NCBI RefSeq assembly: GCF_026151205.1
Contig: NC_087082.1
Span: 4,781,908-4,845,907, forward strand
DNA: 64,000 nt
Reading direction: 5' to 3'
Origin: Bolinopsis microptera
Taxonomy: Eukaryota; Ctenophora; Tentaculata; Lobata; Bolinopsidae
This document shows positions 25,861 to 60,735 of this stretch, piece after piece; position 1 is the first letter of the stretch; the number at the start of each line of letters is the position of its first letter. Position numbers and translations under genes: made by a program. Below the pieces are notes generated by a model. It ran no database searches. It had not been told where the DNA came from and was given only the letters and a program-made list of their open reading frames with translations.

Positions 25861-26080
25861 ATCAGGATCCGGATGTATGAGCGACTAGATGAACTATAAA
25901 AACCATTTAGATAAATATAAATGTGTGGAAACTGCAAGCTTGTGTTTTGCAATATGTACTGTACATGTACCAAATATGTGACTGTTTAGTGTTTAACTGA
26001 GTTTGAAATTAAAACAATTTGTAATGTTTTGAGTCAAAGATTGTGATCAAAGTAGTTAAATTAATATATATTTAATTTTA

Positions 26081-26535
26081 ATACTTTCAACACTACCATA
26101 TTAATATAACAAATAATTTGAGGCTCTAATGATGTAATTTTACGAAGATTTCAAGCCTTACGTCGCGTTATGTGTTTCCCTTCGTGTTCAAAAGCATTAT
26201 AAATTAATATATTTATTATTGTTTTTATCTAAACATAATTTAAATCTATTGAATTTTATTTATACAGTATAGATAAAGGATCAAAATGCTAAAGGTGTTA
26301 TTATATCTCGTTATATCAATTTTGACGTTTATTTTTTATTGTTTGACTCATGTAACTGTATGCTGTATGTTGGAACTAATGATTTGTTTTTATTCTGCAT
26401 AACTATCATCAATCTTGTCTATTGTTAATGGAATAGCCCGGCGCGCGCTACTTCGTAGCACTTGCCTCGGGCAAGCGCTTGTCATACGTTTTAATACTTT
26501 CAACACTACTATATAACAAATAATTTGAGGATGTA
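26081..26535 (+). mobile_element. Penelope-like element 3' end remnant between direct repeats
   Basis: GAGGCTCTAATGATGTAATTTTACGAAGATTTCAAGCC followed by GTGTTTCCCTTCGTGTTCAAAA (26121-26193) aligns with the last ~70 bp of the Penelope element's pLTR. The surrounding segment starts and ends with a ~45-bp direct repeat, TAATACTTTCAACACTAC … AACAAATAATTTGAGG, at 26083-26122 and 26492-26530. Confidence 0.6.
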
Positions 26536-26539
26536 CCAT

Positions 26540-27305
26540 GGAAGTCTAGAGTACGCGCAACAAGAAATGCAGCTGTAAACGACTTGGTAACGGGGTGCAT
26601 GTGAGCTCTGGGGGCCAGTGGCATCAGAAGACTGGCTATCAGCCTTGGAAATAAGATGAGTTCTTTAGATTCATGTCACATCTGCACTGCATCTCCATCA
26701 CAATGACACAATCACTCTCTCCTTCACTACCCTACCCTACCCTAGCCTAGCCCTACCCCTCCCTCCTTTTACCTGTTGCGGGTACTCTGGACTGCATGGA
26801 CATCCTTGAATAGAGGTATTTTATATAGTGGTGTTGTGGTATTATACTGTGTACATGTATATATATATTCTATCCTATATATCAATATATTCTATATCTA
26901 TATTATATACTGTATCTTTTATATACAAACTTTTCCTTACCCCCGCCTCCCCTTCCTCTATAAATTGTACTCAAATCCCACACCCAACCTGCTATACTTA
27001 CTAAATAACCTCTATATCTCTACATTGGGCCATAGCAGTCCTCCCCGCTCCCTTCCCCTCCCTCCCCTATTTCACCAAGCACCAACATCTCTCCAATTCA
27101 CATCATAAACTTTCATGTAATTAGACCTTGTGTTCCTTTTTTTATTTTATTTTGAAAATGATTTTGTTTAACTTTACCTCTTTACCTGATATCACTCACC
27201 CCTGTCAAAACTGTGTTACTCTCATTATCTTATTTTCAGGCTGTTGGTTGGTTTGATGGTGCCCTGGCCCCCATCTCATTATGTGCTCCCTACCATATAT
27301 TCTTC
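26540..27305. other. Probable 5' leader of LINE B
   Basis: No protein gene supported. It includes a CT-rich tract (26700-26770 and 27030-27080) and AT-rich DNA before the ORF1 start of LINE B. The 5' edge of LINE B cannot be fixed without a second copy. Confidence 0.35.
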
Positions 27306-27926
27306 ATGCAAGACAGAACTCTTACTGAAGATAATTCTCGATCAACGAGATCGAGAAACAACTCCTCTCCCCTGGATGGAAATGTTATTGACCTTACGAA
27401 ACCTATCACCATCACAACGCCCGGATGCTATGTGCTTAGCAATCCTGACTCTGGTTGTAGAATCAGTCTCTTTCAGGATGTGTTTGCAAGCCAACTGTGT
27501 GACCAATTTTCCTCTGAAATCGAAAATACTGGCACCCTTAAACAGTACAACTCAATCCATAGGCAGTCTCAGGCGCCACTTCCAAGACTCTCGTCATGGT
27601 TTGGACCCGTAGACTATGCGTTCTCAGGAATCGTAATGAAAGCTAATTCTGTCTCCCAATGTCCTCGCCTTATTGCAGCATATCAGAACATGGCCGAAAA
27701 CCTCTTCACACCCAACAACATTGATTGCTCCTCTGACTGCTTTTTGATCAACCAGTATAGGACTGGACGTGATTCCTGTGGTGAGCACAGTGACAATGAG
27801 CCAGAGGTCGACCTCTCAAAACCTGTCGTTACTCTGTCACTTGGCCAACAGCGCTGCATGCTCATCAGAGTGGCTAAGAACCCTGGAAATGCCATCACAG
27901 TCCAACTCGACCAGGGTTCAGTTCTT

Positions 27927-28073
27927 GTTAGAATTAGAATTAGAATTAGAATCAAATTTACACAGCAATACAATAAGAATAAAAATAATTTAAGAAGCTT
28001 CAATCTGCTGTGCAGGACATTCAAGTCAGTCAAAAACTGTTAGCAGAACACCCTTCTAGGGACATAAGGATAA
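27927..28073 (-). mobile_element. 5'-truncated LINE C-family 3' tail
   Basis: On the minus strand this matches the 3' end of LINE C at 31911-32055: from TATCC(TTATGTCCCTAGAAGG) through GCTGTGTAAATTTGATTC to a (TTCTAA)n tail. Only ~147 bp is present, inserted into LINE B ORF1. Confidence 0.85.
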
Positions 28074-30057
28074 TGCACAGTAATGCATGGTACTGATTTC
28101 CAAAAGAAGTATACGCACCAAATACCCAAAGATAATGTAATCACTGGCCCTCTTCCCCAAAATGAGAGTTATAACAGAGAGGTTATTGATGATATGGAAA
28201 TTAGCAGTTCTGATATCAAGAAGCAGCTTTTAAAGCTTAATGTTTTTAAGAGTTCTGGTCCGGATGGCGTTCATCCAAAGTTGTTGAAATCCTTAGCATA
28301 CGATGAAAAGTTTGTTGAAGCTGTAACTGAATTATTTGTTAAGTGTTCAGAAACAGGAGTCCTGCCTGACATTTGGAAGACAGCATCTGTTGTAGCATTG
28401 TTCAAAAAGGGTGTTAAATCTGATCCCTTAAATTATAGACCTGTCTCTTTAACTTGTATTTTGTGCAAAGTGTATGAAAAGTTGGTGAGGGCACATTTAT
28501 TAACATTTTTAGAAGAACGAATTTCAAAGCATCAGCATGGATTTGTGAAGGGTAAATCTTGTCTTTCTAATCTCTTAGAGACATTTGATAATATTCTTGA
28601 TATTTTAGACGAAGGTGCTCCTGTCGATCTTTTGTATTTTGATTTTAGTAAAGCTTTTGACACAGTCCCCCACTTTAGACTTCTATCTAAATTGGAGGGG
28701 TTTGGGGTCAAGGGAAAAGTTTTAGATGTTATAAAAGACTTTCTGACAGACAGAACCATGAGGGTTTGTGTAGAAGGACAATGGTCTGAGGTGAAACACG
28801 TGTTATCTGGTGTTCCCCAGGGGTCAGTATTGGGTCCTTTGCTATTTATTCTTTATATAAACGATTTACCTGACAATGTTAAAAATAAGATTAAATTATT
28901 TGCAGATGATCTCAAGCTAGTTTGTAATGCAGCTAACCATAGAAGTGTATCTGATGATATTTTAGAACTCGAAATTTGGGAGAGTATTTGGCACTTAAAC
29001 TTCAATCCTGCCAAGTGTAAAGTAGTCCATATTAATCTGAATAATAATCCTAACTCGAATTATATTGTAAATGGAGTAGAACTAGAAGTATCTGCACAGG
29101 AAAAAGATTTGGGGGTTATTACCCATAGCTCCTTGCTTTGGAATGAACAGATAAAAGCATGTATTTCTAAAGCAAATCGTATGATCTGCTGGATTGTAAG
29201 AAATTTAGTTATTAGAGAAAAGGTTGTAATGATAGCTATTTATAAAGCTTTGATAAGACCTCATCTTGAGTATTGTGTCCAATTGTGGAATCCAGTTGCG
29301 GCTCATGGAAGTTGGGGGACTGTTTTGGAGCTGGAGAGCGTCCAGAGGCGGTTTACCCGTCTTATTGATGAGGTGGGTACTCTTCCATACAGCCGCAGAC
29401 TGGATATCCTCAATTTGACAACGCTGGCAGAGCGGCGAATACGTGGGGACCTTATCGAAGCTTTTAAAGTAACTAGTGGTTTGACTGAATATGGATCGGG
29501 TTTGTTCAGAATGAGCAGATCTGGTCTTAATCTAGTTTCAACTAATAGGTGTAATAAGAGTGTAACTAAAGTTAAGAATCTCCAGTCTTCTTTTCTTCCG
29601 GAGCGAGTCATTCCTTACTGGAACAAACTCCCTTCGGATGTCAAGAACTGCTCGACAGTTTTAAGCTTTAAAGTTAGATTGGAAGGATTTAAGAAAGAAA
29701 TGATTTCTAAAAACAGTGTAAATGATTTTTATTTTTGGAATATTTCGAGTGAAGTTTTAGGGAAAATTGAAGGACCCAGTTATTTAAGCAATAAGGAGAC
29801 ACATAATGAATATCTTTGGTTTCATCCTTTTGTGGCAAAGAAGCGTTTTATAAATCTTTATTCCACTGGGAAGTATTAATGAATTATTTATAGATAATGT
29901 ATTAGATTTTATTAATTAATAAAATTGAATTTGATAAATTATTAATGTTGATGGAAAAATATATTTATTTAAATTATTTTTTTATTTAGTGCAATGATAT
30001 TTTGTAGATCACTTGTGATGATGTTATGTCATAATTTTTTTACTTACTTACTAATTC
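28074..30057 (+). mobile_element. LINE A, 5'-truncated copy with open RT frame
   Basis: A 5'-truncated non-LTR element inserted in LINE B ORF1, directly abutting a minus-strand LINE C tail. It ends ATTTTTTTACTTACTTACT, a short ACTT microsatellite tail also seen in the second copy (ends about 50147). Confidence 0.85.
28083..29879 (+). CDS. LINE A ORF2: reverse transcriptase (endonuclease missing)
   Basis: An open 598-codon frame. RT motifs are all present: the ISSSDIKKQLLKL..FKSSGPDG linker, NYRPVSLT (~118), motif A FDFSKAFDTV (~186), motif B GVPQGSVLGP (~243), motif C LFADDLKLV (~272) and the thumb EKDLGVITHSS (~342). The C-terminus ends FINLYSTGKY without a zinc knuckle. The apurinic endonuclease domain that should precede the linker is lost by 5' truncation, so the ATG used here is fortuitous. 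All catalytic residues remain, which suggests fairly recent insertion. Two further copies occur, at 46651-50147 (split) and 20309-20527 (tail only). Confidence 0.9.
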   Translation: MHGTDFQKKYTHQIPKDNVITGPLPQNESYNREVIDDMEISSSDIKKQLLKLNVFKSSGPDGVHPKLLKSLAYDEKFVEAVTELFVKCSETGVLPDIWKTASVVALFKKGVKSDPLNYRPVSLTCILCKVYEKLVRAHLLTFLEERISKHQHGFVKGKSCLSNLLETFDNILDILDEGAPVDLLYFDFSKAFDTVPHFRLLSKLEGFGVKGKVLDVIKDFLTDRTMRVCVEGQWSEVKHVLSGVPQGSVLGPLLFILYINDLPDNVKNKIKLFADDLKLVCNAANHRSVSDDILELEIWESIWHLNFNPAKCKVVHINLNNNPNSNYIVNGVELEVSAQEKDLGVITHSSLLWNEQIKACISKANRMICWIVRNLVIREKVVMIAIYKALIRPHLEYCVQLWNPVAAHGSWGTVLELESVQRRFTRLIDEVGTLPYSRRLDILNLTTLAERRIRGDLIEAFKVTSGLTEYGSGLFRMSRSGLNLVSTNRCNKSVTKVKNLQSSFLPERVIPYWNKLPSDVKNCSTVLSFKVRLEGFKKEMISKNSVNDFYFWNISSEVLGKIEGPSYLSNKETHNEYLWFHPFVAKKRFINLYSTGKY

Positions 30058-32370
30058 ACGTACCTCTGTGACCTACAGGACCTGCAGCTCCACTTTCCTA
30101 AGAAACCGAAGTGCCCTATCTACACCCCTGAAAGAGATATCTATCACTCCTATACTTGCCCCCAAGACCCCTGGAGTCTCAGGCTCACCATCGCTACCTC
30201 TGCACAACAGACGTAGATCCTCCTTGTCTCTGTCTAGCTTCTCACAAGTTGACACCAGCTCAGTTGGGTCTCCAGTGGCCAGTAGTTCTCCTTCCATAAC
30301 CAGCAGCAAAACATCAGTCTCTGATAGTGATACATTGCCTCTCAGCATAGAAGCCATGCTTGAAGCCATTGATCTAATGAAAGACAAAACTGTGAAAAGC
30401 GAACTTTCTCGCCATGGCAGCACAAACTCTGGAACCCCTCTGGATTGTAAGAAAAGACTGAAGAAAGTTGCGAAAGCATGTCACAAACGCCTGAGCACGC
30501 TTCTTGTTGAACCTCCAGTAGTCTCAGCTGAGCCCGAATGCGTTACCCATTCCCTCCAAACTTTGGAAAACTCTGTTATTGATCTACAATCCAAAATAAG
30601 TCTACAACATAGCACCCTCCAAACACTTGTCTTATGTTCTGACAGTAATTCCAATCAAAAAGGTAGTGTCAGCCCCCCTAACCTTTCTAATGAACTCAAC
30701 ACTATGGACAAGAGACTTAAAAAGTTAGAGGATATAATGAGCAGCATAAACGAAAAACAACATGAAACTGCTACCTCCCTTAAAGCCTTTGAAGCAGATG
30801 TCGCTGCAATTAAGAACAAAGTAGATGACTCTAAGGCCTGCATACAGTCTCTCCAGCTTAATGACCGCACCACCCCATCCAGAAAAAAGCCATCGCCTCA
30901 TCCTCAAAACCAGAACCACCCAACCCACAGCCCTAGCGAAAACCAAAAAAGGTTCTACTCCTACATGACTCCCAGATGAACAACTTTCTACCTGAGTCAT
31001 TTTCCTCTGGGTTCAAGGTGGAAAAAATGAAAGTAGGCTCTTATACTGACATGATAAAAGACCACTGTATGAGAGATGTCATTAAACAGCCAGAGGTCGA
31101 CTGTTACATTCTCCAGCTTGGAGTCAATGACTACAGATACAGAACCTGCTCTGTTAATAAAGCGATTGAGGATGCAAAATCAGTCATCGATAAACTCCTC
31201 TCGAGCTCCAGTGCAAAGGTTGTCATCTCCCTACCCACCCCAACCCCTGGATTAATCAGTGATCTTACCAACCAATTTGTCTCAGAAATAACCCAATTTG
31301 TCTCAGCTAAAAGAGGGTTAAGTGACTTTTACCGCCGCCTATATACTGTAAACAATACTGGAAACTTTTCCCGTGCCATTTCTGCTGCTGAGTCATCCCA
31401 AGACTCTCCTAACCCGTTGAAGGAGGACCAACTTCATGTCTCAGAGTATGGTCTGAAAAAACTTTGTTTGAATATTAAACTTGGCCTATACCGTGCCTTT
31501 GGTATGAGATCCCATAGAAAGCAGCCCCCTACAGAGCGTTAGATTAACCCTAAAATTCAAGAAAAAACAAGTATCACGAGATCAAGTCGCTGTGATGTCC
31601 TGGAACATCCAGGACAGCACAGGAGACGGGTCTAACAAATTTGAAAATAGCGAATTTTTATCAATCCTCAAACAAGCTAACATTCTTTGTCTTCAAGAAA
31701 CAAAGAAGCAAGTTAAGATTGAAGGATACCTCTCTTTTAATAGCAACCGCAAAAATTCACGCTCAGGAGGGGTCTGCATTCTTGCTGAAAATGACCTAAG
31801 AAAAGGTGTCTCTAGTGTGCTTTGTAATGAATCTGATGACATTATTGTTGTTAAACTGGACAAGAACTTTTTTAAACTTGATTTTGACCTATTTTTGGTA
31901 TGTTATTATATTAGAATTATTAGAATTAGAATCAAATTTACACAGCAATACAATAAGAATAAAAAATAATTTAAGAAGCTTCAATCTGCTGTGCAGGACA
32001 TTCAAGTCAGTCAAAAACTGTTAGCAGAACACCCTTCTAGGGACATAAGGATATAGCATGTAAATTGTAAAACAAAATAAGTAATAAATTAATGAGTGGT
32101 AAAATAAGATATGATTTAACAGTGAACTGTGGGCATGAAGGTAACAATTAATGTTGAAAATTACATAGATGCCCACTTTGGAATATCGTAAGTAATATTA
32201 TTTACAGTTATACACAGAGAAGTATAGAACAACATTAGAATGGCAATGATAACAAATGGGAACGAATAAAGGAGATGTTTAAAGTTCTATACTTCTGAAA
32301 ATAGGTCATATAACGCAGGGGGCCTTTCCACCCGACAAAAACTCCAGCACCTTAAAAATTGTTTCAGTTG

Positions 32371-33870
32371 TCACATAGCTAGAGTGTAGAAATAGTCGAA
32401 ACTATTGTTTATTTCATAGGATGAGACTCCTTGAATTACATCTGACATAAATTTAGATTTCATACATTGTGAGAAATTTACACTACATTCTATAGTCCTT
32501 ATGTTCTCTGGAATTGTATTCCAACATTTTGCACCTAAATATGTAAAGGTTTTGTGTGTTCTGGATTTGTGAATATAAAGGTTGCACCTCTCAGCATCAC
32601 GTGATCCTCCGGATACATAAGAAAATTTACCGGTGAATGATGATGGTGCAGCCTCATTAAGAATTTTATACATATACGTTGATAGATGGAGTTGTCGTCT
32701 TAAGTGTAAGGGTAACCACTTCATATTTCGATATACATTTACTGATGGTTCCTGCCAATGAACATCTAGTGCAATTTTTGCTACTTTCTTGTATAATATA
32801 TCAAGAGAATTAAGTCTGGTTTTGGCAGCCCTAGACCATATTATATCCAGGTAGTCAAATTGGGGGAGCATAAGAGCATTTACAAACATTTTTCTATATT
32901 TCAGTGGAAGAAGATTTTTCGACCTATATAATGCCCCTATTCTTTTAGCAATTTTTGATTTCACATAATCAATATGGTCTTGAAAGTTCAATAAATTGTC
33001 TATCATGAGACCTAAATATTTTTGAGATTTAGTTTCTTCTATAAAAAGGCATTCTTTTTCCAAATCCAGAGGGATTGACAACGTGTCCAGATTAGGATAT
33101 CTATCAAATACAATGAATGAAGATTTTGCAGCATTTAGTCTCAGCTTGTTGATTCTAAGCCATTCATACACAATTTTCATATCCTTAATTACATTTTCAT
33201 ATATGCTTCGGGAAATGTTATCAAAATATAGTGCACTGTCATCTGCAAATAAGTAAACAGTAGATTGTGTGCAATTTCTACTGAGATCATTTATGAATAA
33301 ACTAAATAGAATTGGTCCTAATATGCTACCCTGTGGCACACCTGTTTTAACAGGGAGTGATGTGCTTACATTACCACGTATTTTGGTGTGCTGCTTTCTG
33401 TCCCCAAGGTAGCTTTTGAACCACTTTATGACAAAGCCATCAACTCCATAATACTTAAGTTTTTTCAATAAAATATTATGGCTTACTGTGTCAAAGGCCT
33501 TTTTAATATCTAAGAATACAATTGCAGGTTTCTTCTGTGATTCCTTAGACGTAAATATTTTATCAAATAGATTAAGCATTAGAAAAGTGGTGGAATGATC
33601 TTTTCTAAATCCATACTGATTGTTGGTAAGCAGTTTATTTGTTTCAACATACTCTGTGAGCTGTTGGTTAACAAAATATTCTATGCATTTTCCAAGTAGG
33701 GGGAGTATGGATATTGGCCGGTAGTTATTTGGATCATTAGGGTCACCAGTTTTAAGAATTGGAGTGACTGATGCAATTTTACATGCCAACGGCATTGTTC
33801 CACTTTTCATACTAAGGTTTATAATATGAGTTACTGGATCGATGATTTGGGGAATAATATACTTATATAC
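32371..33870 (-). CDS. LINE C ORF2, reverse transcriptase part
   Basis: An open frame of about 500 codons on the minus strand. It carries NYRPISILP, HQYGFRKDHST-type motif 0/1 (here NQYGFRKDHST), motif A FLDIKKAFDTV, motif B GVPQGSILGP, motif C LFADDSALYFD and the thumb KYLGLMIDN. The C-terminal domain reads WLPLHLRRQLHL and FSYVSGGSRDAERC. Its 5' part is separated from the endonuclease by a 430-bp LINE B-family insert at 33871-34300 flanked by CTTATATAC and CTTGTATAC. Closely related in sequence to LINE D ORF2, but with the catalytic FADD intact where D has FADV. Confidence 0.88.
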   Translation of the reverse strand, partial: VYKYIIPQIIDPVTHIINLSMKSGTMPLACKIASVTPILKTGDPNDPNNYRPISILPLLGKCIEYFVNQQLTEYVETNKLLTNNQYGFRKDHSTTFLMLNLFDKIFTSKESQKKPAIVFLDIKKAFDTVSHNILLKKLKYYGVDGFVIKWFKSYLGDRKQHTKIRGNVSTSLPVKTGVPQGSILGPILFSLFINDLSRNCTQSTVYLFADDSALYFDNISRSIYENVIKDMKIVYEWLRINKLRLNAAKSSFIVFDRYPNLDTLSIPLDLEKECLFIEETKSQKYLGLMIDNLLNFQDHIDYVKSKIAKRIGALYRSKNLLPLKYRKMFVNALMLPQFDYLDIIWSRAAKTRLNSLDILYKKVAKIALDVHWQEPSVNVYRNMKWLPLHLRRQLHLSTYMYKILNEAAPSSFTGKFSYVSGGSRDAERCNLYIHKSRTHKTFTYLGAKCWNTIPENIRTIECSVNFSQCMKSKFMSDVIQGVSSYEINNSFDYFYTLAM

Positions 33871-34300
33871 GAAAGCCATGTATTAATTGACTGTTTGCTT
33901 TACTCCTCAGTTAGGGAAAAATTCAACTTTTATCCCCAAAACATCACTGACCTAGCCGGTCTGCTCTCCAACAAAAATCTAGATCCTACCAAATTTACTG
34001 CCACAGCAAGAGCAATCCATTCAATTCTCTCTGTGAACGAACAATATACAGCCTATTATAAGAGCCCAGATTTCCACTCAAATACTGGCAAGTGCATAAT
34101 GCTCTAGGAACTCAAAATAAACTCATGAACCATACAAATTTGATTTACTTGAAGAAAATAGCATTATATTATAACATTTCTATTTTATCCCTACACATTT
34201 GTAAATGATTAGAAGTGTGTAACTTAAATTATTTCAGAATTATAACTATTGTGAACTCAATAAAATAATTATCACTTTTGTATCCTTGTATCCTTGTATC
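33871..34300 (+). mobile_element. 5'-truncated LINE B-family copy inside LINE C ORF2
   Basis: Matches 40975-41402, the C-terminal coding end and 3' UTR of LINE B, including AGAGCAATCCATTCAATTC and the TATCCTTG octamer tail. Its frame is still open for LLYSSVREKFNF … NTGKCIML, showing the true C-terminus of B-family ORF2. The 9-bp flanks CTTATATAC (33862-33870) and CTTGTATAC (34301-34309) differ by one base and are a likely target duplication. Confidence 0.87.
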
Positions 34301-34309
34301 CTTGTATAC

Positions 34310-35804
34310 TTTAATAGGCATGATATCGTTAATAGATTTATCTGATGGTATACTGAGTATATATTCTTTTACTTGTTCAACAGTAACCTCTTCGAATACA
34401 GAGAGTTTACACTCTGGTGGAGGCGGCATATATTCTAGAAAGTCGTCTGAATCCTTTTCCTTAATTGATTCTTGTAATATTGTACCAACTGTGGCAAAAT
34501 GCAGGTTAACTCCGTTAACATTTAAGTTGCTTGGGGAAGAGCTACTTATTTTTCCAGGTAAGTTTGAAGCATGTTTGATAGTTTTCCAAATACCTTTCAA
34601 ATCGTTTTTTGCACTTTTCACAGTAAGGTCCTGAACAATATTTGTACGTCTGTTTTCTTTGGATAATTTTGTCACATAGTTTCTTTGGGGACGATAGTTA
34701 TCCCACGAAGTAGAGCATTTCTTATGTAGTTCACTTTTTCTGCAGTTACATATTCCATTAATACACTTACACTTGAATTTGTTTAATTGTCCTAAACACT
34801 TTTTATACTTTCTGAAAAGCATCTTCTTCTTCCGTATTTCTGCCAGCACTATTTTAGAGGGATTACAAAGAAAGTTACTATTACATTTAATCTGTTTAGG
34901 TGGACAGTAATTATCATACGATTCCTGGATGTGATGATTAAGTCCATCTAGCGCATGGTCTACATTAGTACAACTTAGAATATTACTGTAATTACTGCAG
35001 GATCCCAGAAAATAGCTTAAGGCTTTTAGATTGTTTAAGGAGTGGTCTCTGATAAGGACCTTCTGGAATTTACTAGCTTTATTTACTTTAAAGTCGAGAA
35101 CACATTTGAGAGCTTGGTGATCTCCTATTCTATCATCAAGTACTTTACACTCTATGAAATTAGAGTAACAGTTAGTCATTACAACATCTATTGTGCTCTG
35201 CGTTATTCTACCATCTAAGTTTGCAACTCTAGTAATTCCTGTAACAGTCTGTATCATTCCAAAGAGCTTCATTGTTATATCTAACTTTTTATAATCTAGA
35301 TCAGATAAAGAGTTTTGGTTAACATTAACATCGCCAATCCATATTACTTTCTTACCTTGAAGTTTCATCATACATTCAGTCATATAATCAAGGAAAGTAT
35401 CTAGATGACAAAAGTTTTGTGATCTGTAGAAGCAGCAAATGTAAAGATTGGCGTCCTTGAGTTGTATCCATATAGCTTCGATTTTAGAAATATCAGAGTA
35501 GGTTATATCTAAATTGAGTAATTTGTGGTTAACATTTTGGTTGATCAATATACCACACCCTCCTCTTCCTCTATCGTTAGGTCTATCACACCTTATAAAA
35601 TCAAAGTTTAAGGGGAAGTTAAGTGTACTAGTGTCTATATCAGATTTAAGGTTTGTCTCATTAATTCCAATTATGTCAAGCTTTTCGCGAAATATTAGCT
35701 CCTGTAGTTCGAGAGTTTTTGCCAGATTAGTCAGGCCACCCTGTATATTACATAGACCAAGAGAGAGATTATCGTTTATTGAGGTACGAATAAGGTTAAA
35801 CCAA
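34310..35804 (-). CDS. LINE C ORF2, apurinic-type endonuclease part
   Basis: The minus-strand frame runs open from about 35804. EN motifs: LGLCNIQGGL (Asn), GINETNLKSD (catalytic Glu), RGGCGILI, WIGDVNVNQN (Asp-x-Asn), STIDVVMTN and GDHQALK (the final Asp-His pair). A Cys-rich linker follows (CKCINGICNC), then SDKSINDIMPIKVYK, which continues across the 33871-34300 insert into the RT part. No ATG is needed at the left edge of the protein, since ORF2 of such elements may begin close to the end of ORF1; I chose the first codon after the upstream in-frame TAG. Confidence 0.83.
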
Positions 35805-36088
35805 AGCTAATGGGGAACAAATCCACATGCAGTCTCCTCAAGTAGACTAAGTTTCAAATCGTGTCATACATATGATTTAAATTGGATTTCGGATCAGCAA
35901 TCATACTGCAGTTTAAATCATAAAATTTAACAGCATAAAATAGTAACTCACTTCTGTTTGTGATAAATATAGCTTGAGAGATATAAAAACGTTAAGTTAT
36001 TAGAAATTTGTGCTGATCTAACATTTTAAACCAGATAAAACAGTAATCCTGTTATTATTCATGTTGGATTATAGAATTTTAATGAAGT

Positions 36089-38008
36089 TTAACACAAGTG
36101 AGTTACATATTTGAGATGCTTACCAAGCCTGGCAATTCCTAACTTATTAAGGTGCACATTGTCATGGCCCCTGCCAAAATACTTGTCCTTTCTATTATAA
36201 TTTAAAGTAAAGAGATTATTTTCATGTTCTGTGTTAATGTATATTAGCCCATGCTTATAACACATATTCTCTAAGTATCGATTAAGTCCCTGCACTATAA
36301 TGTTCTTACTAGTGACAGCTCTAGGCAGAATATTTAAGATATATATTTTTGCACTATTAAATTCTGCCCACAATTTTTGAACAAATTCTTCCATGTCATT
36401 GGTGGCACTGTTGAAGTTCATTGTGTTGAGGTCAATTGGATCAACACAGTTAGTACCAGTTAGTAAAACAACCTTTTTAACCTTTTCTTTGTTGAGAACT
36501 TTGAACTGACTGTCGCTAAAGAGTCTTTGGGACATTTGGATTGAGTTGGCCCCTGGGTAGAAAAATACTTTGGCCTTCTGAGATGAAGAGCTCAACAGTT
36601 TTTCATTCAGATGCCTAAACATGCTGCTGCTGATATAAACTGTGCTCACATCGTTGGGTGTCTCCTTTTCGAACAATTGTTGTCTGTTAGCATGCCGCCC
36701 TGATTGATGCAGATGGGGTGGTGGAGATGTATAGGGTGGGGTTAGAGGTCGGTGCTGATAAGCACCATTCGTTTTCCTTGATGGATGAACTATAAACTCG
36801 TCTTCTTGATAAGGTACATAGCCGCTGGAGTTGGAGATGTTTTCATATGGGTCATGGTAATTGTCATTGCACATGTTGGTTGGTGTACTTGTTAATCTTT
36901 GGACAACAGCTACAGGTTTGATCAGTCTGAATGTGATACTGATCCTTTTGTTTGTACAAGATGGTTGAGTACAGATTTCATGTCTGTAATGAAGCTGGGA
37001 TTTTTTAGACATGATACAAACATCCCCATGCTTTAGATCTAGGGCAGACACCACTTTTCCTGTTTGAATTTCTGTGAACTGCATCGTCCTAGAGGCACCC
37101 AGAGAAACTGTAACAATATAAGAGTTTTCATCGATGCATTCTTCATTATCACTATGGATAGGCATGCATTCTGTCCCAGTACTGTAGTAGTTTACGAGAG
37201 CACTGTTGTAAACATAATCCGGGAGTAACACATCAAGATATGAACAGATAGCAGCCAGATAGGACTGATGTGGTATCTCCTTCGCCTCGTGACTTCCCCC
37301 ATTATACACATATGGGAAGTCCCCAAAGTAAGCTGTTTTCCTATTTTGAAACTGGTGGCTAAAATCCAATTCTCTCAGGAAGATGTCTAAGGAGAATTTT
37401 TGAAACGGTGCCTGATCAATGAGTTCAACAGGTGGTATGATAATGTCAGGGCTTTCGTCATTTACACTTAAGGCCACACTAGATATGGGTGTTACATCTA
37501 TTTCAGCATAATACTTGCCACTCCATGGATTGACAGATCCTGTACTCCCATTGATTTGATTTTCTGTGTTGTTGGAAATGATAGAATCTGGTGCTTCAAT
37601 GATGCCATCACTATTGATTAGCATGAAAGATTCAGGCACCTCGCATTCACTGTCATATTCAATCTGATCGTTTTCAAATTCTGTCTGAACTGCAACATCT
37701 GAACACCTATCCAGGACAGCCCGATAATCTATTGACTGATTGGTACTTTGATGTAACAACGTACCATTAATCTCTGCTATAGTCTGAGAAGTTTGAACAA
37801 TGTCTTCTAGGATGATCACTTTCCGCTCGAGAAACTTGACATGAGATTTGAGTGCAGTACAGTTTTTGCATTTTTGATCACATTCCGACAATAGTTTTCC
37901 AAAAAATGTTTCCATTGAATCGTCCATGATATTGAGTTGATGATTTGAATTAAGTTGTTGATTTGAATTGAAGCAAATTGAAGAGTTCACATGTGAGATT
38001 TGTTCCAT
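36089..38008 (-). CDS. LINE C ORF1: AlkB-like dioxygenase fused to SGNH hydrolase
   Basis: An intact 639-codon ORF1. The N-terminus has a CDQKCKNC cysteine cluster and a heptad-like coiled coil (~45-85), as expected for a multimerising, RNA-binding ORF1 protein. Residues ~205-360 read as an AlkB-family 2-oxoglutarate/Fe(II) dioxygenase: YFGDFPYVYNG, the iron motif IHSDNEE (H-x-D, ~284), VTVSLGASRTMQF, HGDVCIMS, a distal His in YRHEI (~342) and RISITFR (~356), the RxxxTxR that binds 2-oxoglutarate. Residues ~450-635 read as an SGNH hydrolase: YISSSMF (Ser), LLTGTNCVD (Asn) and DNVHLN (Asp-x-x-His). AlkB enzymes remove methyl groups from nucleic-acid bases; SGNH 'esterase' ORF1s are known in CR1-type LINEs. 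All key residues of both domains are present. The cellular role is inference. Confidence 0.87.
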   Translation of the reverse strand: MEQISHVNSSICFNSNQQLNSNHQLNIMDDSMETFFGKLLSECDQKCKNCTALKSHVKFLERKVIILEDIVQTSQTIAEINGTLLHQSTNQSIDYRAVLDRCSDVAVQTEFENDQIEYDSECEVPESFMLINSDGIIEAPDSIISNNTENQINGSTGSVNPWSGKYYAEIDVTPISSVALSVNDESPDIIIPPVELIDQAPFQKFSLDIFLRELDFSHQFQNRKTAYFGDFPYVYNGGSHEAKEIPHQSYLAAICSYLDVLLPDYVYNSALVNYYSTGTECMPIHSDNEECIDENSYIVTVSLGASRTMQFTEIQTGKVVSALDLKHGDVCIMSKKSQLHYRHEICTQPSCTNKRISITFRLIKPVAVVQRLTSTPTNMCNDNYHDPYENISNSSGYVPYQEDEFIVHPSRKTNGAYQHRPLTPPYTSPPPHLHQSGRHANRQQLFEKETPNDVSTVYISSSMFRHLNEKLLSSSSQKAKVFFYPGANSIQMSQRLFSDSQFKVLNKEKVKKVVLLTGTNCVDPIDLNTMNFNSATNDMEEFVQKLWAEFNSAKIYILNILPRAVTSKNIIVQGLNRYLENMCYKHGLIYINTEHENNLFTLNYNRKDKYFGRGHDNVHLNKLGIARLGKHLKYVTHLC

Positions 38009-41000
38009 TCCATTAACATTACATTCGTATTACATTCGTAGTACTTTGGTCATACCTCAAATTATTTGTTATATAGTAGTGTTGAAAGTATTAAAACTCT
38101 GCATACTCGTCCTATGTCAAGAAGAATCCAGATTATACTGCTAATACCTTCTCTGTTCTTGACTCTATCTGTATCAGACTACGTCAAAAGGGAGAAGTTA
38201 TTATGTGTGGCGATGCAAATGCAAGAACTGGAAAACTCCCAGACTATATCCTTTCCTGTAATGCACCTGCCATCCATGACATCTATAACGACATTGGACT
38301 CGAGCACGACATAGAAGAACCAAGAAACAATTCTGACCTTACAATATCTGAACCCCACTGCCAACACTTCCTTGACATGGTTATCAATAACCAACTCAAA
38401 ATTCTTAATGGTCGTACCCTTGGGGACACCACTGGAAAAATGACCTGTCACAAATACAATGGAAGCAGTGTGGTTGACTATTTTGTAATCACCTCATGGG
38501 CAAGAGATCATGTAAACTCTCTCCAAGTAAAAGAGTTTACATCATACTCTGATCATTGTCCATTAGTCTTGAAACTCACTACATTTGAACCATTTGTCGC
38601 AAACTTCCAGCTCTCAGACTTTTCTAACTTTCCTTGTGGCTATAAGTGGGACAGCAACACCTCCCATTCACTATTTAAAAAAGCCCTTACCTCGCCCGAA
38701 ATTATCAACAATCTGGAAAGCATTGTGACAAATGAATTTAGCAGTACTCTGGAGGGCAATCACGAACTGAACGATGCAGTCATAAAATGTCTCCACAGTG
38801 CTGCTGATATAGCCTTAAAAGTGAAAAAGCCTCCCAAAAATTCTGCCCGTAAAAAATGGTTCAACCCACAAGTCAACTCCTCGTGGCGGAACCTTAATAG
38901 GCTAGCAAATCGGCTTGGTAGTAAGCACTGTAACAGTATCCTCAGACAAGAATACTTTAAGCAACGCAACAAGCATAGCAATTTTGTAAACAGTAAGAAA
39001 GTAGCTTTCCTTAAGAAGTTAAATGAAGCTATAGAAGAAGGTCACATACTCGACTGGAAAAAATTTAAACGGCTTAAACAAGAACATGACACTAGCCCCT
39101 TACTTGACAAATTTGATTTAGCTAGCTTCCATGACTTCTTTGCATCCCTTTATAAAAAACCAGACCAGGAGCCAGATCTCACTCACCACAATCACAAACA
39201 TTACCCTGAACCACCAGATCTGGATATCCTAAATAAGCTCATGTCAGAATCTGAAGTGACCTCTGCCATCAAAAATCTCAAAAAAGGTAAAAGTTGCTCA
39301 AACGACTTGATATCCAATGAGATGCTTCAGAGCGTAACTCCGCTTTGTCTCAAAGCCATCCTCAAAAACTTCAACCACTCACTGGTCTCCGGTTACTATC
39401 CATGGCACACCAGCATCATTACTCCTATTTACAAGTCTGGCAACCCTTTCAGCCCGGACAACTACAGAGCAATAGCTGTTGGTAGCTGTATGGGTAAACT
39501 GTTTTCTAGCATCTTACTTGAGCGTCTTCTGCACTTCAAAAAGCTCTACTGCCCTGACCCAAAAGAACAACTAGGGTTCTCGAAGGGTGCTCAAACAAAT
39601 GACCACGTTTTTACCCTTAAGACAGTCATTGACAAATATACCAAGGTTAAGAAAGCTCGCCTCTATGCATGCTTTGTTGATTTAAGAAAGGCCTTTGACA
39701 CTGTATGTAAGGACCTCCTTCTGCACAAAATCACATGCCTTGGAATAACTGGAAACTTCTTCAATTGCCTAAGTGATATGTATAGAAACTCAATAGCTCA
39801 TATAAAAATCTCCAAACTCTTGTCCCCTAATATTGACATTGGAAAAGGAACAGAGCAGGGACACCCCCTATCACCGGACCTTTTTAAAATCTATATCAAC
39901 GACTTGTCATCTCTCCTGAAATCTGTTGGTGATTATCCTATTCTAGCTGACGTCCTAATATCACATCTGCTCTGGGCTGACGATCTTGTCCTACTTGCCC
40001 TAAGTCCCAAGGCTTTGCAAGACAATATAAACATCCTATTCGACTTCTGTAACTCTATGGGCCTTGAAGTAAACATTAAAAAAACCAAGATTCTCATATT
40101 CTGCCCTCCTAAAAGAAAGCAATCCTATGAAACATTCATTTTGGGAGGCCAGCCCATCCAACACACCGAAAAATACTGCTATCTTGGCATTATATTCCAC
40201 AGAAATGGATCTTTTACAGCAGCAAATACTGAACTGAGGGCCAAGGCTCTCCGTGCTCTCTATGGCCTCAAAGGCAATATCGTCAAAGATGCCCTCTCTC
40301 ACCGTTCTCTAAACATTCTATTTGACTCTCTAATAAAACCGATACTGCTCTATGGCTGCCAAATCTTATGTCCTCACTCCAAAACCATGAGATACCTCTC
40401 CAAAACAGATAGCAAAGCCAACCCCCAGCATACTCTCAGGTACATCTCACAAGACCACTATGAAAGATTCCAGCTTAAGTTTATCAAGTGGTCCTTGTCT
40501 GTCCATTCAAAAGCATCAAATATAGGCTGCTGGGGCGAAAGTGGGCGCCACCCCCTCTTCTTTGAAGCCTGCAAACTTGCAATAGATTTCTATAGTCGCC
40601 TTGAAAGCACTGAAAATGAACTTCTCTCCGCTGCATTCCACGAGCAGATTATGTTGGGCCTTCCTTGGTACACCAACATCTCTAATCTTCTCACCAAATA
40701 TAACTTCCCCCACTCATCCTCTTCAAAATCCAAGCTCTCTACCAAAATCAGTCACAACATGAGGGACGAATTTGTGGATACCTGGAAATCTGCCAAGGCA
40801 TCCTCACCTAAATTATAATTCTACAATCAAATTAAACATGATTTTGAACCAGAAACATACTTAGGAGTGGTTAAAATCCCCGATGCTCGGAAAAGCTTAA
40901 CAAGGTTTCGTATTAGCTGCCACAATCTTTACATTGAGAGGGGCCGTTACGAAACCCCCCTAGTACCAAATTCATGTTCTAACTGACTGTTTACTCTACT

Positions 41001-41394
41001 CCTCAGTTAGAGAAAAATTTAACTTCCATCCTAAAAAATTACTGACCTAGCTAGGTTTGCTATCCGATAAAACTTTAGACCTTACAAAATGTACTGCCAC
41101 AGCAAGAGCAATCCATTCAATTCTCTCTGTGAACGAACAATTTACAACCTACTATAAGAGCCCAGATTTCCATTCAAATACTGGCCAATGCATAATGACA
41201 TAGGACCTCAAAATAAGATCGAAATCTACAAATCCGATCTATTTATAGAAAAATAGTATTATAAGACATTTCTATTTTATCCCTACACATTTGTAAATAA
41301 CTAGAATTGTGTAACCTTAAATTATTTCAGAATTATAACTATTGTGAATTCAATAAAATAATTATCACTTTTGTATCCTTGTATCCTTGTATCC

Positions 41395-41495
41395 TTGTAT
41401 CCTACGTTGTATGACCCGCCGCGCACGAGTGCGCGGCTCCCCCTGTATCGTAGAAACTCTACAGTGAAGCGACAGTGGGGGTCACCTCGTGATAC
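41395..41495 (-). mobile_element. Small palindromic element, copy a
   Basis: On the minus strand it matches copies b and c: TTGTATCACG … GACCCCCAC … GATACAGGGGGAGCCGCGC … CATACAACGTA. The terminal hairpin GCCGCGCAC/GTGCGCGGC is perfect. It joins directly onto the LINE B octamer tail, and I see no target duplication. Confidence 0.7.
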
Positions 41496-52345: not shown

Positions 52346-52585
52346 CAATCATCAGAGTTCTAAACTATTTTCACAACTACAATTAAATACATTTATTGAG
52401 GTATGAGATATGATAGACGAGCGTAAGTGTTGACGTGCAAAGGACTGCTGTGAGTGTACTTAAAGATTACTCATCCTCCTCCTTCTCATCAAAACTATTC
52501 TCATCAAAACTACTATCTGGACTGAAGGTATTGCGTTTACAGTGTTTATTGTGCTTCTGAACATTGAACTCTTGATAATATAACT

Positions 52586-54459
52586 ATGTCGAATAATCAG
52601 AGCTCAGACATTAGTCTCCACTCTTGTGAGCGCCCTTTAGAACATTTGAACTTTTCATTCCAGTCTGAAAAATCAGAGAACTGTAACAATTGTCTGTCAA
52701 AAGACATCAAGATTGACTTTTTAGAAAAAAGTTGTCTTTATTGAATGAAATTATCAGAACTAGTGATCTCATTGCTCAGTACAATGATAGTCTCATATCA
52801 GATCAAACTCAAATACAACAACAGAGTTTTAAGTGTGAAAATTTGCTGCCAAACTTATCAGAGGAGATTGAATGTGAGATCATAACCATTACCCCTCAGT
52901 CACACGTTGTTATCAATCAAGTAGAAGCGTTTGATGTAGATGACATTGTTGTGGAAGATGTTGTATCGGACAGTTTGTTTGTTAACAACGATGTCGTGGA
53001 CAAGGTTGTTCCACAGGAGGTTGTTGGAAACGAGATTGTTATCAGTGAGATTGTTGTTAACGAGGTTATGGCAGACAAGGATGATGTGTCTGATCTCCCT
53101 GTATCTACTGCTACTGGTGAATCACGGATCAACACCCCTAAGCCCAGAGACAAATATCCAAACTTGGTCCCTGCCCCTGTCTACGATCCTATAACACCGG
53201 GGCCAATGAATATATCTGTAACTTGTTCCCCATCACCAGTGAAACCAGTTACCCTACTAGATGATGGTCCATTCTCTAAATTTTCACTTGATCTATTAAT
53301 GGAAGAACTTGAGTTCAGTCACGGTTTTAAAAACAGGAAATCGGTTTATTTTGGTGACTTTCCCTATGAGTATTCAGGTGCAACACATGACCCAAAAAGT
53401 GTACACAATGATTCCTACCTTGCTAAACTCAGCTCCTACATTAATGTGATATTACCCAATTTCAGACACAATAGTATTCTCGTCAATCTATATGAAACTG
53501 GAGCAGAGTTCATGCCAGCTCATAGCGATTCTGAATCATGTATTGTAGAACACTCTGATATTGTAACCATTTCACTTGGTGCGACGAGAACACTGCAAAT
53601 TAGATCAAACGGCAGCAATGAAGTTGTGGGCTCTGTGCAGCTTCAGCATGGAGATGTCTTCATCATGTCCAAATTGTCTCAGGCTGACTTTCAACATGAG
53701 ATACTGCCAGACGAAATGTGTGATGAACCCCGGATCAGCATCACCCTAAGACTGATGAAGCCCCCTAGGATCACTCAGTCAACTGAGTTTGGTCTGCGTT
53801 CACCGCCCCCACCCATCCCTCATTCAGGACACAAACTGACAGACTCTTCTTCACCTGCACTCTCAGTTTGCAAACAGTCAGCTAAAGCTTCACAAAAGTC
53901 TGTCCTATTCATAAGCAGCTCTATGTTCAGGTTTCTTGATGCGGACAAGTTATCATCGTCCACTGTTAGTGCTAGTAAACTGTTTTATCCTGGGGCTGAT
54001 GCCAAAGTAATGTTAAATAAACTAAAAACTGACCTACACTCTGTTCCATCCCCATCTATTATTTATATTATGACAGGAACTAATAATGTGAACACAGTCT
54101 ATTTTGGCTCAAAGTCACTGAAGGATGCAGCGGGTGACTTAAGTAATCTCTTAAATTATCTCAAGTCAGTGTATCCGAATGCAATAATTAATGTTCTCAA
54201 TATTCTTCCCAGGAGTACAAAAGGCCGCAATGATGTTGTGGCAGAGCTGAATAAGGTTATTAAGGATATGTGTAGCAAAGATTCTTGTTTTAATTACATT
54301 AGCACCCATAATTTATTTAACTATAATAGAAGTGGATTCAGGAAAGAATTTTATTTTGCCAGACCATCTGCAAAAATATCTGATATCTGTCACCTCAATA
54401 CAAGCGGTGTTATTCGACTTGCTAAATTTCTGAAGTATTGGGCCCATAAGCAAGTTTGA
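52586..54459 (+). pseudogene. LINE D ORF1: AlkB-like dioxygenase fused to SGNH hydrolase (one frameshift)
   Basis: The likely start is the ATG at 52586 (MSNNQSSD). The N-terminal CNNCLSKDIKIDFLEK matches LINE C's CKNC coiled-coil region; a one-base shift at the A6 run near 52725-52730 separates it from the main 575-codon frame. The AlkB-like part keeps YFGDFPYEYSG, the iron motif AHSDSE (53519), VTISLGATRTLQI, HGDVFIMS, a distal His in FQHEI (53693) and RISITLR (53735). The SGNH part keeps FISSSMF (53909), IMTGTNN (54074) and ICHLN (54391). All catalytic positions of both domains are kept although the ORF2 has decayed. An acidic Val/Asp-rich stretch (52900-53080) replaces the middle region of LINE C ORF1. 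Confidence 0.85.
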
Positions 54460-54707: not shown

Positions 54708-57281
54708 GTGGGACATTGCAACATGCAGGGAGGACTAACAGGTATGCCAAAATGTCTTGAAATCCAAGATCTAATCTGGAAAGAGAAATTAGATGTTTTA
54801 TGCCTGAATGAAACAAATCTTAAGTCGGATATTGACTCAGCCAGTCTAAACCTACCCAAGAATTTTACTTTTATCCGCAAAGACCGTCCTAACGACAATG
54901 GTCATGGGGGATGTGGCATTCTCATCAGTGAGCACATAAAGTTTAAAATGATTCAACTAAACTTAGTTTTGCAATATGACCAAATCGAGGCTATTTGGAT
55001 CCATCTTACAGATTGCAATATTTTCATCTGCTGTTTCTACAGATCTGAGTTGTTTAGTCCTCTTGACAAATTTTTAGATTATATGACAGACTGCATGATG
55101 AGTATAGGAAGTAAGAATGTTATTTGGCTGGGTGATGTAAATATAGACCAAAACAACATCAGCAGTATGAACTATAAGAAATTAGACATTACAATGAAAA
55201 TGTTTGGAATGGTACAGGTAGTTCAAGATATTACCCGCATTGCTAAACTAGGAAACAGAATCACAAAGACCACAATCGATGTTGTCATAACAAACACTTA
55301 CTCCAAGTTTCTTGACTGCAAAGTTCTTGATGATTGTATAGGAGATCATCAGGTCGTAAAGTTCATTGTCGATTTCAATGTGCATAAGGCCTCAAAATTC
55401 AAGAAGTTACTAATAAGAGATCACAGCAAAATGAATGTTACTGCTCTTAAAGAATTTTTGGAAACTTGTGATTATAGACCAATAATAGATTCAACTAGTC
55501 TGAATGATGCAGTTGATGGTTTAAACGAACATATTGATCACTACTATGATCACTTCTGTCCAATTAAACAAATTAAGTGCCATAGTGATTACATCCATAA
55601 GCCATCTCCAGAATTTTTAGAAAGTAAGAAGTTGAAAGGGAAACTTTACCGTAAATTTTTAACACACAACAAGAACAGACGTATACATCCAAATGGTCTT
55701 ATACACTGTAATAAATGTGACTCATTATGGATGGCATATAAACGGCAGAGAAACTATTCAACCTATTTGTCTCTAGAATTAATAGGAAGACTAACTTAGC
55801 AACAGAACTGAAAGCCAAGTGTGCCATGAATGATCTAAAGGGTGTATGGAAAACGATAAAGACAGCATCAAATCTGCCTGTTAAAGCTAACAATATCAAT
55901 AACAATCTTGATGCTGAAACCACCAATAAATATTTTGCTGAAATAGGTCCAAAGATCCAAGCAGAAGTGCAGCTGGAAAATGAAAATGAATTTCTATCTT
56001 ATCTACAAAATGAGCAGATTGACAACGAGACCAGCTTGAATAGCTTTACTGAAATAACTGAGTCCAATATCTTAGACTATGTGGCAAGTATCCCTTGTAG
56101 CAAATCCACTATAATGATCATATACCATTGAGAGTGTTTAGACAAATTTTACCTGCATTTATTGCTCCATTAACACATCTTGTTAATTTGAGTTTATCCA
56201 GTGGCATCATGCCAAACAGCTGCAAGGTTGCAAAAGTCACCCCAATCCATAAGGATGGTGATACTGAGAATCCTATTAATTATCGACCAATCTCAATTTT
56301 ACCGATTCTTGGAAAGTGCATCGAATTTTGAACTCCCAACTGACTCAATATCTTGATGAAAAGGGAATACTTTCAGAGCATCAATATGGTTTCCGTAAAG
56401 ATCACTCTACACCTTATCTCATGTTAGATCTGTTTGATCGTATATTTACTGCTAAGAACAGTGCCAAGCATCCTGCAATTATCTTCCTGGACATCAGAAA
56501 GGCATTTGATACTGTTAACCATGATATTCTCATTCAAAAGCTGAAGCATTATGGAATAAAAGATACTGCATTGAGCTGGTTTAGGAGCTTCCTCACAGAT
56601 AGATTACAGCAAACTAGAGTTGGGAGTAGGATAAGCAGTTTACATTCATTGAACTCTGGAGTGCCTCAAGGAAGTATATTAGGACCAATTCTATTCAGCA
56701 TTTTTATCAATGACCTGCCTAATGCATGCCTATTTTCTAAACCTTATCTATTTGCTGATGTCGGTGCATTATATTTTGACAATATATCTAGAGGAAACTA
56801 TGGTAACATCAAACAAGAGTTGAAATTAGTTATCAGATGGCTTCAGGCTAATAAACTATCCCTGAATAATGAAAAAACAAAACTAATGATCCTTGACTCT
56901 AAGCCTAACCTTGATGCCATCCTTGTTGAAATTTGTGATGACCTTACTTTGGTAATCTGTGAAACTAAATCCCATAAGTACCTTGGACTTATAGTTGACA
57001 GCAGATTGAAATTTAATGAACATATTGATAACATTAAGAAAAAGATATCCAAAAGAATTGGTGCTATGTATAGATCAAAAAAACTTCTCCCTCTTAAGTT
57101 CAGGAAGATGTTTGCTAATGCACTTATGTTGCCACATTTTGACTACTTAGACACCATCTGGTCAAGAACATATAAAAAACGACTAGGAGAGTTAGATATC
57201 ATGTACATTGTACAAAAAGGTTGCTAAAATAGCCCTAGATGTAAACATCAGAGAGAGGTCGGTTAATGTATACAAAAATAT
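54708..57281 (+). pseudogene. LINE D ORF2: endonuclease and RT with frameshifts and mutated catalytic site
   Basis: EN motifs: GHCNMQGGL, CLNETNLKSD, HGGCGILI, WLGDVNIDQN, TTIDVVITN and GDHQVVK. The frame breaks near 55785, 56105 and 56320, and again near 57210. RT motifs: NYRPISILP, HQYGFRKDHST, motif A FLDIRKAFDTV, motif B GVPQGSILGP. Motif C reads LFADVGALYFD where LINE C has LFADDSALYFD, so the second catalytic Asp is Val and the enzyme would be inactive even without the frameshifts. The frame stops at VNVYKNM (57281), where a poly-G-ended element begins; WLPLHLRRQ follows after it at 59748. Confidence 0.87.
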
Positions 57282-57490
57282 GGGGGGGGGGGGGGGGTGT
57301 CACGTCCGTCTATGTCCGCTTGTCTCATAGAATCCAAAAAGGACAGGACATAGGCGGACATAGGCGGACATAGGCGGACATAGACGGACATAGGCGGACA
57401 TAGGCGGACATAGGCAGACATAGGCGGACATAGGCGGACATTAATGGACACCTAAATTGCTTAATAAAATGTTCAATTTTTGCTGTTATA

Positions 57491-57600
57491 GGGGGATCAT
57501 GTTTTTTGTCCGTTCGGTACCCTATATTTTCAAAACGGACAAAAAATAGAGCGGACAAAAACGGACAAAAATGGACAAAAACGGACAAAAATGGAAATAA
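57491..57600. repeat. Hairpin-plus-unit array X4 with unit CGGACAAAAA
   Basis: GGGGGATCATG, one inverted unit TTTTTTGTCCGTT, a unique core CGGTACCCTATATTTTC, then about six direct CGGACAAAAA units. Same plan as X1-X3 in miniature, inside X1. Confidence 0.75.
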
Positions 57601-59490: not shown

Positions 59491-59741
59491 TCAAAATGTT
59501 TGTCCGCTAATGTCCACCAATGTCCGCTAATGTCCACCAATGTCAATCCATGTCCGTCCGGGTCCGCCAATGTCCGTCCGAGTCCGCCAATGTCCGTCCG
59601 AGTCCGCCAATGTCGGTCCGAGTCCGCCAATGTCCGTCCGTGTCCGCCAATGTCCCAAAAAACACGTCCGTTGTCTCATAGAATCCAAAAAGGACAGGAC
59701 ATAGGCGGACATAGACGGACATGACACCCCCCCCCCCCCCC

Positions 59742-60702: not shown

Positions 60703-60735
60703 TGACTTTATTTATTTATTTATTTATTTATTTAG
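60703..60735. repeat. (TTTA)n microsatellite
   Basis: About eight TTTA units between LINE D and the CT-rich satellite; possibly the LINE D tail. Confidence 0.85.

Follow-up and report, generated by a model that had tools for sequence, protein, structure and literature searches.

AlkB-like dioxygenase and SGNH domains joined in the ORF1 proteins of LINE retrotransposons from the ctenophore Bolinopsis microptera

The proteins encoded by the first open reading frame (ORF1) of long interspersed nuclear elements (LINEs) are poorly understood, the enzymatic ones above all. The type IV ORF1s of CR1, L2 and RTEX elements (ZfL2-1 and others) carry a C-terminal SGNH hydrolase domain with S, G, N and H blocks, and lie upstream of an ORF2 for an endonuclease (EN) and a reverse transcriptase (RT) (PMC3905857, PMC4120745); the term AlkB is absent from both papers. 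An intact AlkB demethylase is kept by another kind of retrotransposon, the Ogre-like Ty3/Gypsy elements of Phalaenopsis (PMC9289625). SGNH-type LINE ORF1s and AlkB in a long terminal repeat (LTR) element are already in print, while no publication on a LINE ORF1 with AlkB was found in the open-access literature; other literature could hold one. Here both domains are described in one protein. The window analysed is a stretch of 64,000 nucleotides from Bolinopsis microptera (contig NC_087082.1, positions 4,781,908 to 4,845,907), and the element at its centre, LINE C, lies on the minus strand. Its ORF1 (36089..38008) encodes 639 residues with no internal stop and, like the type IV proteins, has a C-terminal SGNH domain with such blocks.

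The ORF1 of LINE C is defined by its open frame, by Pfam and by its copies in the genome, eight of which, the window copy counted, match over the full length at 99-100% identity and are stop-free. An N-terminal Cys/coiled-coil-like stretch is followed by the AlkB domain and then by the SGNH domain. The AlkB-type 2-oxoglutarate (2OG)-Fe(II) dioxygenase domain (residues 190-365; 36914..37441, minus strand) is assigned from PF13532, an AlphaFold2 (AF2) model and a fold search. PF13532 (2OG-FeII_Oxy_2) matches residues 243-361 (E=5.6e-23, 82.6 bits, cut-off 31.2), and phmmer against the PDB finds ALKBH3 (2.2e-9), ALKBH2 (2.2e-7) and AlkB (1.1e-5). In the ALKBH3 alignment the HxD, the distal His and the R-x5-R strand are all matched in register. 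A preliminary description, made from the sequence alone, had seen an HxD in IHSDNE, a distal His in YRHEI and an RISITFR strand; the ligand residues H285, D287, H343, R355 and R361 (H285-x-D287, distal His, R-x5-R) sit at those motifs. The profile search it called for gave a match, and the predicted model shows the beta-helix it expected at about residues 205-360. The AF2 model of residues 190-372 (pLDDT 87.2, pTM 0.85) is, by the fold search, a double-stranded beta-helix of the AlkB type, with ALKBH2 and ALKBH3 as the nearest solved folds and ALKBH5 and FTO further off. Its viral neighbours in BFVD include AlkB domains of RNA virus polyproteins and AlkBs of giant viruses and phages. The full-length protein, modelled from a single sequence, gave a pLDDT of 33 and no usable model. 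AlkB relatives from two bacterial contigs and four viral contigs served as input to the model and the tree only, and two additional viral scans for AlkB relatives gave no match. The protein holds an AlkB-family domain with a complete predicted Fe/2OG motif.

The SGNH/GDSL hydrolase domain (residues 451-639; 36092..36658, minus strand) is recognised by blocks kept between families, S462, G518-T-N520 and D616-N-V-H619. PF13472 (Lipase_GDSL_2) scores 26.9 bits (E=7.7e-6), under its cut-off of 32.9; of the SGNH set proposed in the preliminary description, blocks I, III and V stand as conserved features and the profile match stays below threshold. By eye, residues C43, C47 and C50 with a heptad-like helix after them (37793..37885, minus strand) may form a zinc-finger/leucine-zipper of the kind found in type IV proteins, and a similar CxxC and leucine stretch occurs in groups D, N and P. 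Frame, Pfam, phmmer and conserved blocks agree on the AlkB-SGNH fusion at 36089..38008 that had been proposed; two further AlkB ORF1s in the window, at 27306-27926 and 52732-54459 (both plus strand), had been overlooked.

The same combination is found in many LINE families of the genome. Searches with the LINE C ORF1, the LINE B AlkB part and the LINE C SGNH part gave 97, 102 and 169 matched stretches, respectively (69 of 812, 150 of 418 and 150 of 228 candidates scored); a single copy may yield two stretches, and the number of groups is a lower bound. One or more ORF1s were read from each of 13 groups (C, C2, D, B, B2, G, H, I, J, K, M, N and P). AlkB is present in all 13 and SGNH, by profile, match or blocks, in 12, the copy from M stopping where SGNH begins. 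Groups N and P, retrieved via SGNH, have AlkB as well. The AlkB part of B2 is 86-87% identical to that of B and the remaining groups are more distant; since AlkB identity between groups is as low as 19%, the trait is old. PF13532 was run on C, window copies D and B, L061, L063-L067 and L069, and scores above its cut-off in C, window B and D, L061 (D), L064 (H), L065 (I), L066 (J), L067 (K) and L069 (M). SGNH blocks I, III and V are aligned in C, C2, D, B, G, H, I, K, N and P. Group J has blocks III and V in the block alignment and block I in the motif collection, and in the B2 copy (L042) the sequence examined stops short of block V. Downstream of the ORF1s of G, H, I, J and K there is an endonuclease-bearing ORF2 in each, with RT in all but K within the stretch examined; both domains are assigned by Pfam in H and I and the endonuclease part in J, while both in G and the endonuclease in K are assigned by reading. 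The LINE ORF2 assignment thus covers C, D, B, G, H, I, J and K and, for the endonuclease frame, C2. A chance match is ruled out by the E-values, the fold and the many copies. A captured host ALKBH gene beside a LINE was also considered and rejected; three ALKBH-like frames (L052, L053 and L056), probably host genes, are without LINE architecture and stand apart, at 21-29% identity to the LINE AlkB domains.

The 709-residue ORF1 frame of the group J copy has a feature of its own, a PHD finger (PF00628, E=1.1e-5, above cut-off) N-terminal to AlkB and SGNH.

The catalytic motifs and the substitution rates both bear on whether the AlkB domain is maintained. HxDxE, the distal His and R-x-S-x-T-x-R are present in 44 of 44 collected ORF1s, and HxD...H and R-x5-R occur in order in all 11 LINE groups of the alignment. 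Because the 44 were selected by an HxD(N/D/S)E-type pattern (copies of M, N and P were added after reading), the independent evidence comes from the motif's second half. Between B and B2, the ratio of non-synonymous to synonymous substitution rates (dN/dS) is 0.048-0.058 for AlkB, 0.09-0.16 for the N-terminal part, 0.11-0.16 for SGNH and 0.22-0.25 for the linker, with AlkB the lowest part of ORF1 in 8 of 8 copy pairs. Since dS is saturated in most of the between-group pairs, usable dN/dS comes from B/B2 alone, and dN is compared for the others as point estimates with bootstrap ranges. Among the parts of ORF1 set side by side, AlkB shows the lowest dN in B/B2 (AlkB 0.049, SGNH 0.111, linker 0.167), N/P (AlkB 0.103, SGNH 0.225, N-terminal 0.683), C/C2 (AlkB 0.217, SGNH 0.412, N-terminal 0.264) and C/D (AlkB 0.399, SGNH 0.642, N-terminal 0.932), and its range is separate from that of SGNH in all four; in C/C2 the ranges of AlkB and the N-terminal part overlap. 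The C/D values for EN (0.362) and RT (0.361) indicate a constraint about like that on AlkB. Judged by these rates, the AlkB domain is under purifying selection.

The ORF1 product of LINE C may be an SGNH ('esterase', type IV) ribonucleoprotein (RNP) protein with a built-in AlkB demethylase that clears the template for the ORF2 protein (ORF2p), a reading which we hold about as readily as we doubt it. ORF1p would coat the element RNA and so bring the AlkB domain to the template, where it would oxidatively remove methyl groups from the RNA or from cDNA made on it. The likeliest targets would be Watson-Crick-face lesions of the 1-methyladenosine (m1A) and 3-methylcytidine (m3C) type, which stop reverse transcriptase, and the cleared template would let ORF2p copy to its end. 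For the SGNH part, a function at membranes/lipids or in assembly is possible, as has been suggested for other ORF1s of type IV. AlkB, ALKBH2 and ALKBH3 oxidise away m1A and m3C using Fe(II) and 2-oxoglutarate. Bases of this type block reverse transcriptase, and AlkB lifts the block at the bench (PMC7968990, PMC8053708).

Several points weigh against template clearing by this protein. The demethylase activity is predicted and methylated bases in LINE RNA are presumed; of the role offered in the preliminary description, the intact domain, fold and motif stand, and methyl stripping stays conjectural. The family G copy (L063) had no match in the PF13532 scan, only PF03171 at E=0.0069, and SGNH profile scores lie under the Pfam cut-off in every ORF1 scanned. 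In G/I the dN is lower for SGNH (0.386) than for AlkB (0.567), and in H/K the two are about equal (AlkB 0.580, SGNH 0.538). The residue after HxD, which is Asp in ALKBH3, varies: 8 of 13 groups have Asn, four (H, M, N and P) have Asp and D has Ser, and a non-Asp residue here may shift the substrate. This position may be equivalent to D135 of E. coli AlkB. Changes at D135 broaden the substrate range of that enzyme (PMC7968990).

Escape from host recognition, in which AlkB would strip LINE RNA of N6-methyladenosine (m6A) or some other regulatory mark, is an unlikely role. Such evasion has been proposed for plant RNA viruses, and RNA virus polyprotein AlkBs are among the structure neighbours; it has also been proposed for the orchid Ty3/Gypsy AlkB, which demethylates m6A RNA in vitro (PMC9289625). 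However, the modelled LINE fold is closer to ALKBH2/3 than to ALKBH5/FTO, the orchid protein is named ALKBH5-like by its authors (PMC9289625), and in human cells m6A aids L1 and ALKBH5 suppresses it (PMC7873242). Somewhat less probable still is a role on the DNA side, in which AlkB would act during target-primed reverse transcription, repairing or demethylating the target DNA or the single-stranded cDNA. The nearest folds to the model, ALKBH2 (double-stranded DNA) and ALKBH3 (single-stranded DNA), speak for it, and ORF1p may be present at the integration site, but the place of AlkB in an RNA-packaging protein is then unexplained. We find it improbable that the domain is retained as a non-catalytic nucleic-acid-binding module: such a module would be useful, given that SGNH-type ORF1s in RepBase are without a structural RNA-binding domain (PMC3905857), but binding would not require the metal and 2OG ligands, which are complete in all 44 ORF1s (the first motif half having been used in collecting them). 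Chance read-through or a host-gene passenger next to a LINE can be dismissed, since nothing was found in its favour and AlkB lies in ORF1s of 13 groups in many near-identical copies, is only 21-29% identical to the three probable host ALKBH genes and is under purifying selection.

The LINE copies start with short leaders. LINE C begins with an exact 42-nt spliced leader, leader 1 (38056..38097, minus strand), which is also found on other copies and families. In a survey of 42 copies (11 of C, 14 of C2 and 17 of B/B2), a leader was called from an exact match of at least its last 12 bases joined to the first bases of the family. It is joined directly to the family start in 33 copies (22 with leader 1 and 11 with leader 2); four missed the threshold, three with one changed base near the leader end and one with six extra bases, and the body start was not located in five. 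Seven of the 11 leader 2 copies match the last 13 bases only, and most of these are a third variant. In 13 of the 42 copies the leader is complete (42 or 44 nt) and begins at the same G. At least three interchangeable leaders occur on LINE copies (L001-L047), different leaders are found within one family, and C copies that are 99% identical differ in leader; because leaders interchange among copies, host trans-splicing seems to supply the LINE 5' end in each cycle.

The 37-base core of leader 1 occurs 998 times in the genome and the 36-base core of leader 2 occurs 88 times, with no occurrence of either reversed control. Twenty exact tandem copies of leader 2, with a period of about 428 bp, form an array at C5:1039673-1050574 (L086), in which the exon is followed by GTAAGATT (GT donor) and, by eye, by an Sm-like CCTTTTGG; by these features the array is a set of spliced-leader RNA genes. 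In LINE copies with leader 2 the exon runs into the family's own start instead of the donor, from which it appears that LINE transcripts receive the leader by trans-splicing and are copied together with it. No leader 1 gene with a donor and an Sm-like site was found among the stretches read (100 of the 998 places were listed). Leader 1 and the spliced leader of Hormiphora californensis (PMC8527503) are identical in 37 of 45 aligned columns; the alignment score is 58, and none of 2000 shuffles exceeds 36. A leader is present on about 30% of transposable element Iso-Seq reads in Hydra (PMC12220107), and dinoflagellates have relict leaders in retrocopied genes (PMC3229502); in a limited literature search, no report of swapped leaders on LINE copies was found. 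Two other loci (L087 and L088) have leader 1 cores in another tandem repeat, with TCAGGG after each in place of a donor, and a further leader-1-like stretch in the window (26076-26122) is followed by GCTCTAATG and is perhaps the 5' end of another retrocopy.

The ORF2 DNA of C and C2 is 98.2-98.4% identical across the 1.2 kb examined, from 36 bases before the endonuclease motif, whereas the ORF1 DNA is about 71-72% identical in three pairs (L006/L007/L009 versus L018/L016/L019), one of them with an additional 120-base piece at 78%. The border is sharp at the start of ORF2. Because ORF2 is near-identical while ORF1 is far diverged, ORF1 must have been swapped as one unit in recent times; for Jockey-superfamily LINEs, a reticulate history of ORF1 has been reported (PMC4120745). 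In a tree that combines 11 LINE AlkBs with three ALKBHs that are probably the host's, two bacterial sequences and three from viral contigs, a group of nine LINE AlkBs is recovered (support 81/91) and B/B2 lie beside host and bacterial enzymes; a single clade of all 11 is not rejected (approximately unbiased test, p-AU 0.196). By eye, the coiled-coil-like stretch is between AlkB and SGNH in family B and before AlkB in the others. Given the placement of B/B2 and this difference in position, two separate AlkB uptakes by LINEs are possible. The RT tree places C with D and G with I, in agreement with the AlkB tree, and B very distant; it adds H to G and I, a placement that is unsettled in the AlkB tree.

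A wider proposal, tentative and on balance doubtful, joins these observations. ALKBH2/3-type template repair in the ctenophore LINE RNP would clear RT-stopping methylations, those of the host spliced leader included, and allow full copies to the first base of the leader; there were possibly two uptakes, giving N-terminal part-AlkB-SGNH in CR1-like families and AlkB-coiled coil-SGNH in B, and AlkB ORF1 cassettes would have been swapped between elements.

In the window, the LINEs are nested and broken. The ORF2 of LINE C has an endonuclease part (34312..35782, minus strand), open and with no Met for about 140 codons, and a reverse transcriptase part (32371..33867, minus strand; RVT_1 E=1.1e-40), the listed frame of which begins at 33879, within an insert. 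This insert (33868..34311, plus strand) is the 5'-truncated 3' tail of a LINE B relative, ends in (TTGTATCC)n, and matches 40964-41400 at 86% identity over about 440 bases (33868-34307). The window copy of LINE C is broken, since this tail interrupts its ORF2. In many copies of C and C2 (for C, from 35782 downwards) ORF2 has a stop just upstream and no Met in its first 140 or so codons (L006, L007, L009, L016, L018-L023 and L026), which suggests that translation may use a non-AUG start or another route.

LINE C is embedded in the endonuclease part of LINE B, which lies on the plus strand, spans 26488 to 41402 and starts with leader 1 (26488..26529, plus). The AlkB part of LINE B ORF1 (27306..27926, plus; PF13532 E=2.5e-15 for the frame 27213-28043) is interrupted by the 3' tail of a LINE C relative (27928..28082, minus; 27928-28072 is 97% identical to the LINE C 3' end). 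A piece with the distal AlkB His follows (28083..28143, plus; by-eye comparison with L035/L037/L039), then a LINE F insert (about 28144-30052), and then the AlkB end, the coiled-coil stretch and SGNH (30053..31542, plus), with a change of frame near 30950. Intact relatives (L035, L037 and L039) continue from AlkB over the coiled-coil-like stretch to SGNH; generic coiled-coil Pfam profiles match the family B linker weakly, every score under its cut-off. Beyond the LINE C insertion, LINE B ORF2 continues with the remaining EN and RT (38203..40818, plus; RVT_1 1.6e-27). LINE D begins with leader 2, with one mismatch (52357..52400, plus). Its ORF1 (52732..54459, plus) has AlkB (PF13532 3.1e-18) and SGNH (GDSL_2 6e-5, below cut-off) in a frame of 575 residues in the window, and is open over 630 residues in other copies. 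The EN and RT pieces of its ORF2 (54708..57227, plus) are followed by a C-terminal RT piece (59721-60110) past a TCC-rich expansion. Such minisatellite expansions occupy 57300-59720 and 60734-64000, one dividing the LINE D RT. Pfam finds EN and RT in the ORF2s of C, D and B in the window, some EN scores of C and D being under cut-off.

The presence of an intact, constrained AlkB domain across many LINE families allows a direct test of two ideas, that methylated bases in the template restrain retrotransposition and that elements evolve to counter this. The epitranscriptomic arms race seen in plant viruses and one orchid LTR family would be widened to animal LINEs, and natural ALKBH2/3-type enzymes, perhaps acting on LINE RNA, have a possible use in sequencing methods. 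Compared with animal ALKBH2 and ALKBH3, the LINE domains share HxDxE and R-x5-R and have these as their nearest solved folds, but the animal enzymes are host repair genes. Plant RNA viruses of the Alpha-/Betaflexiviridae and Closteroviridae, whose kind is represented among the BFVD structural neighbours, are also RNA-borne parasites with their own AlkB; there it lies inside the viral polyprotein and no reverse transcription is involved. The Phalaenopsis elements are of the LTR type, with a separate ORF for an ALKBH5-like m6A eraser in one recent family (PMC9289625), whereas those described here are LINEs in which the domain is fused into ORF1, is nearest in fold to ALKBH2/3, and is an old trait shared by many families. 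In contrast to the type IV ORF1s, the ctenophore proteins have AlkB between the N-terminal part and SGNH or, in family B, ahead of the coiled-coil stretch.
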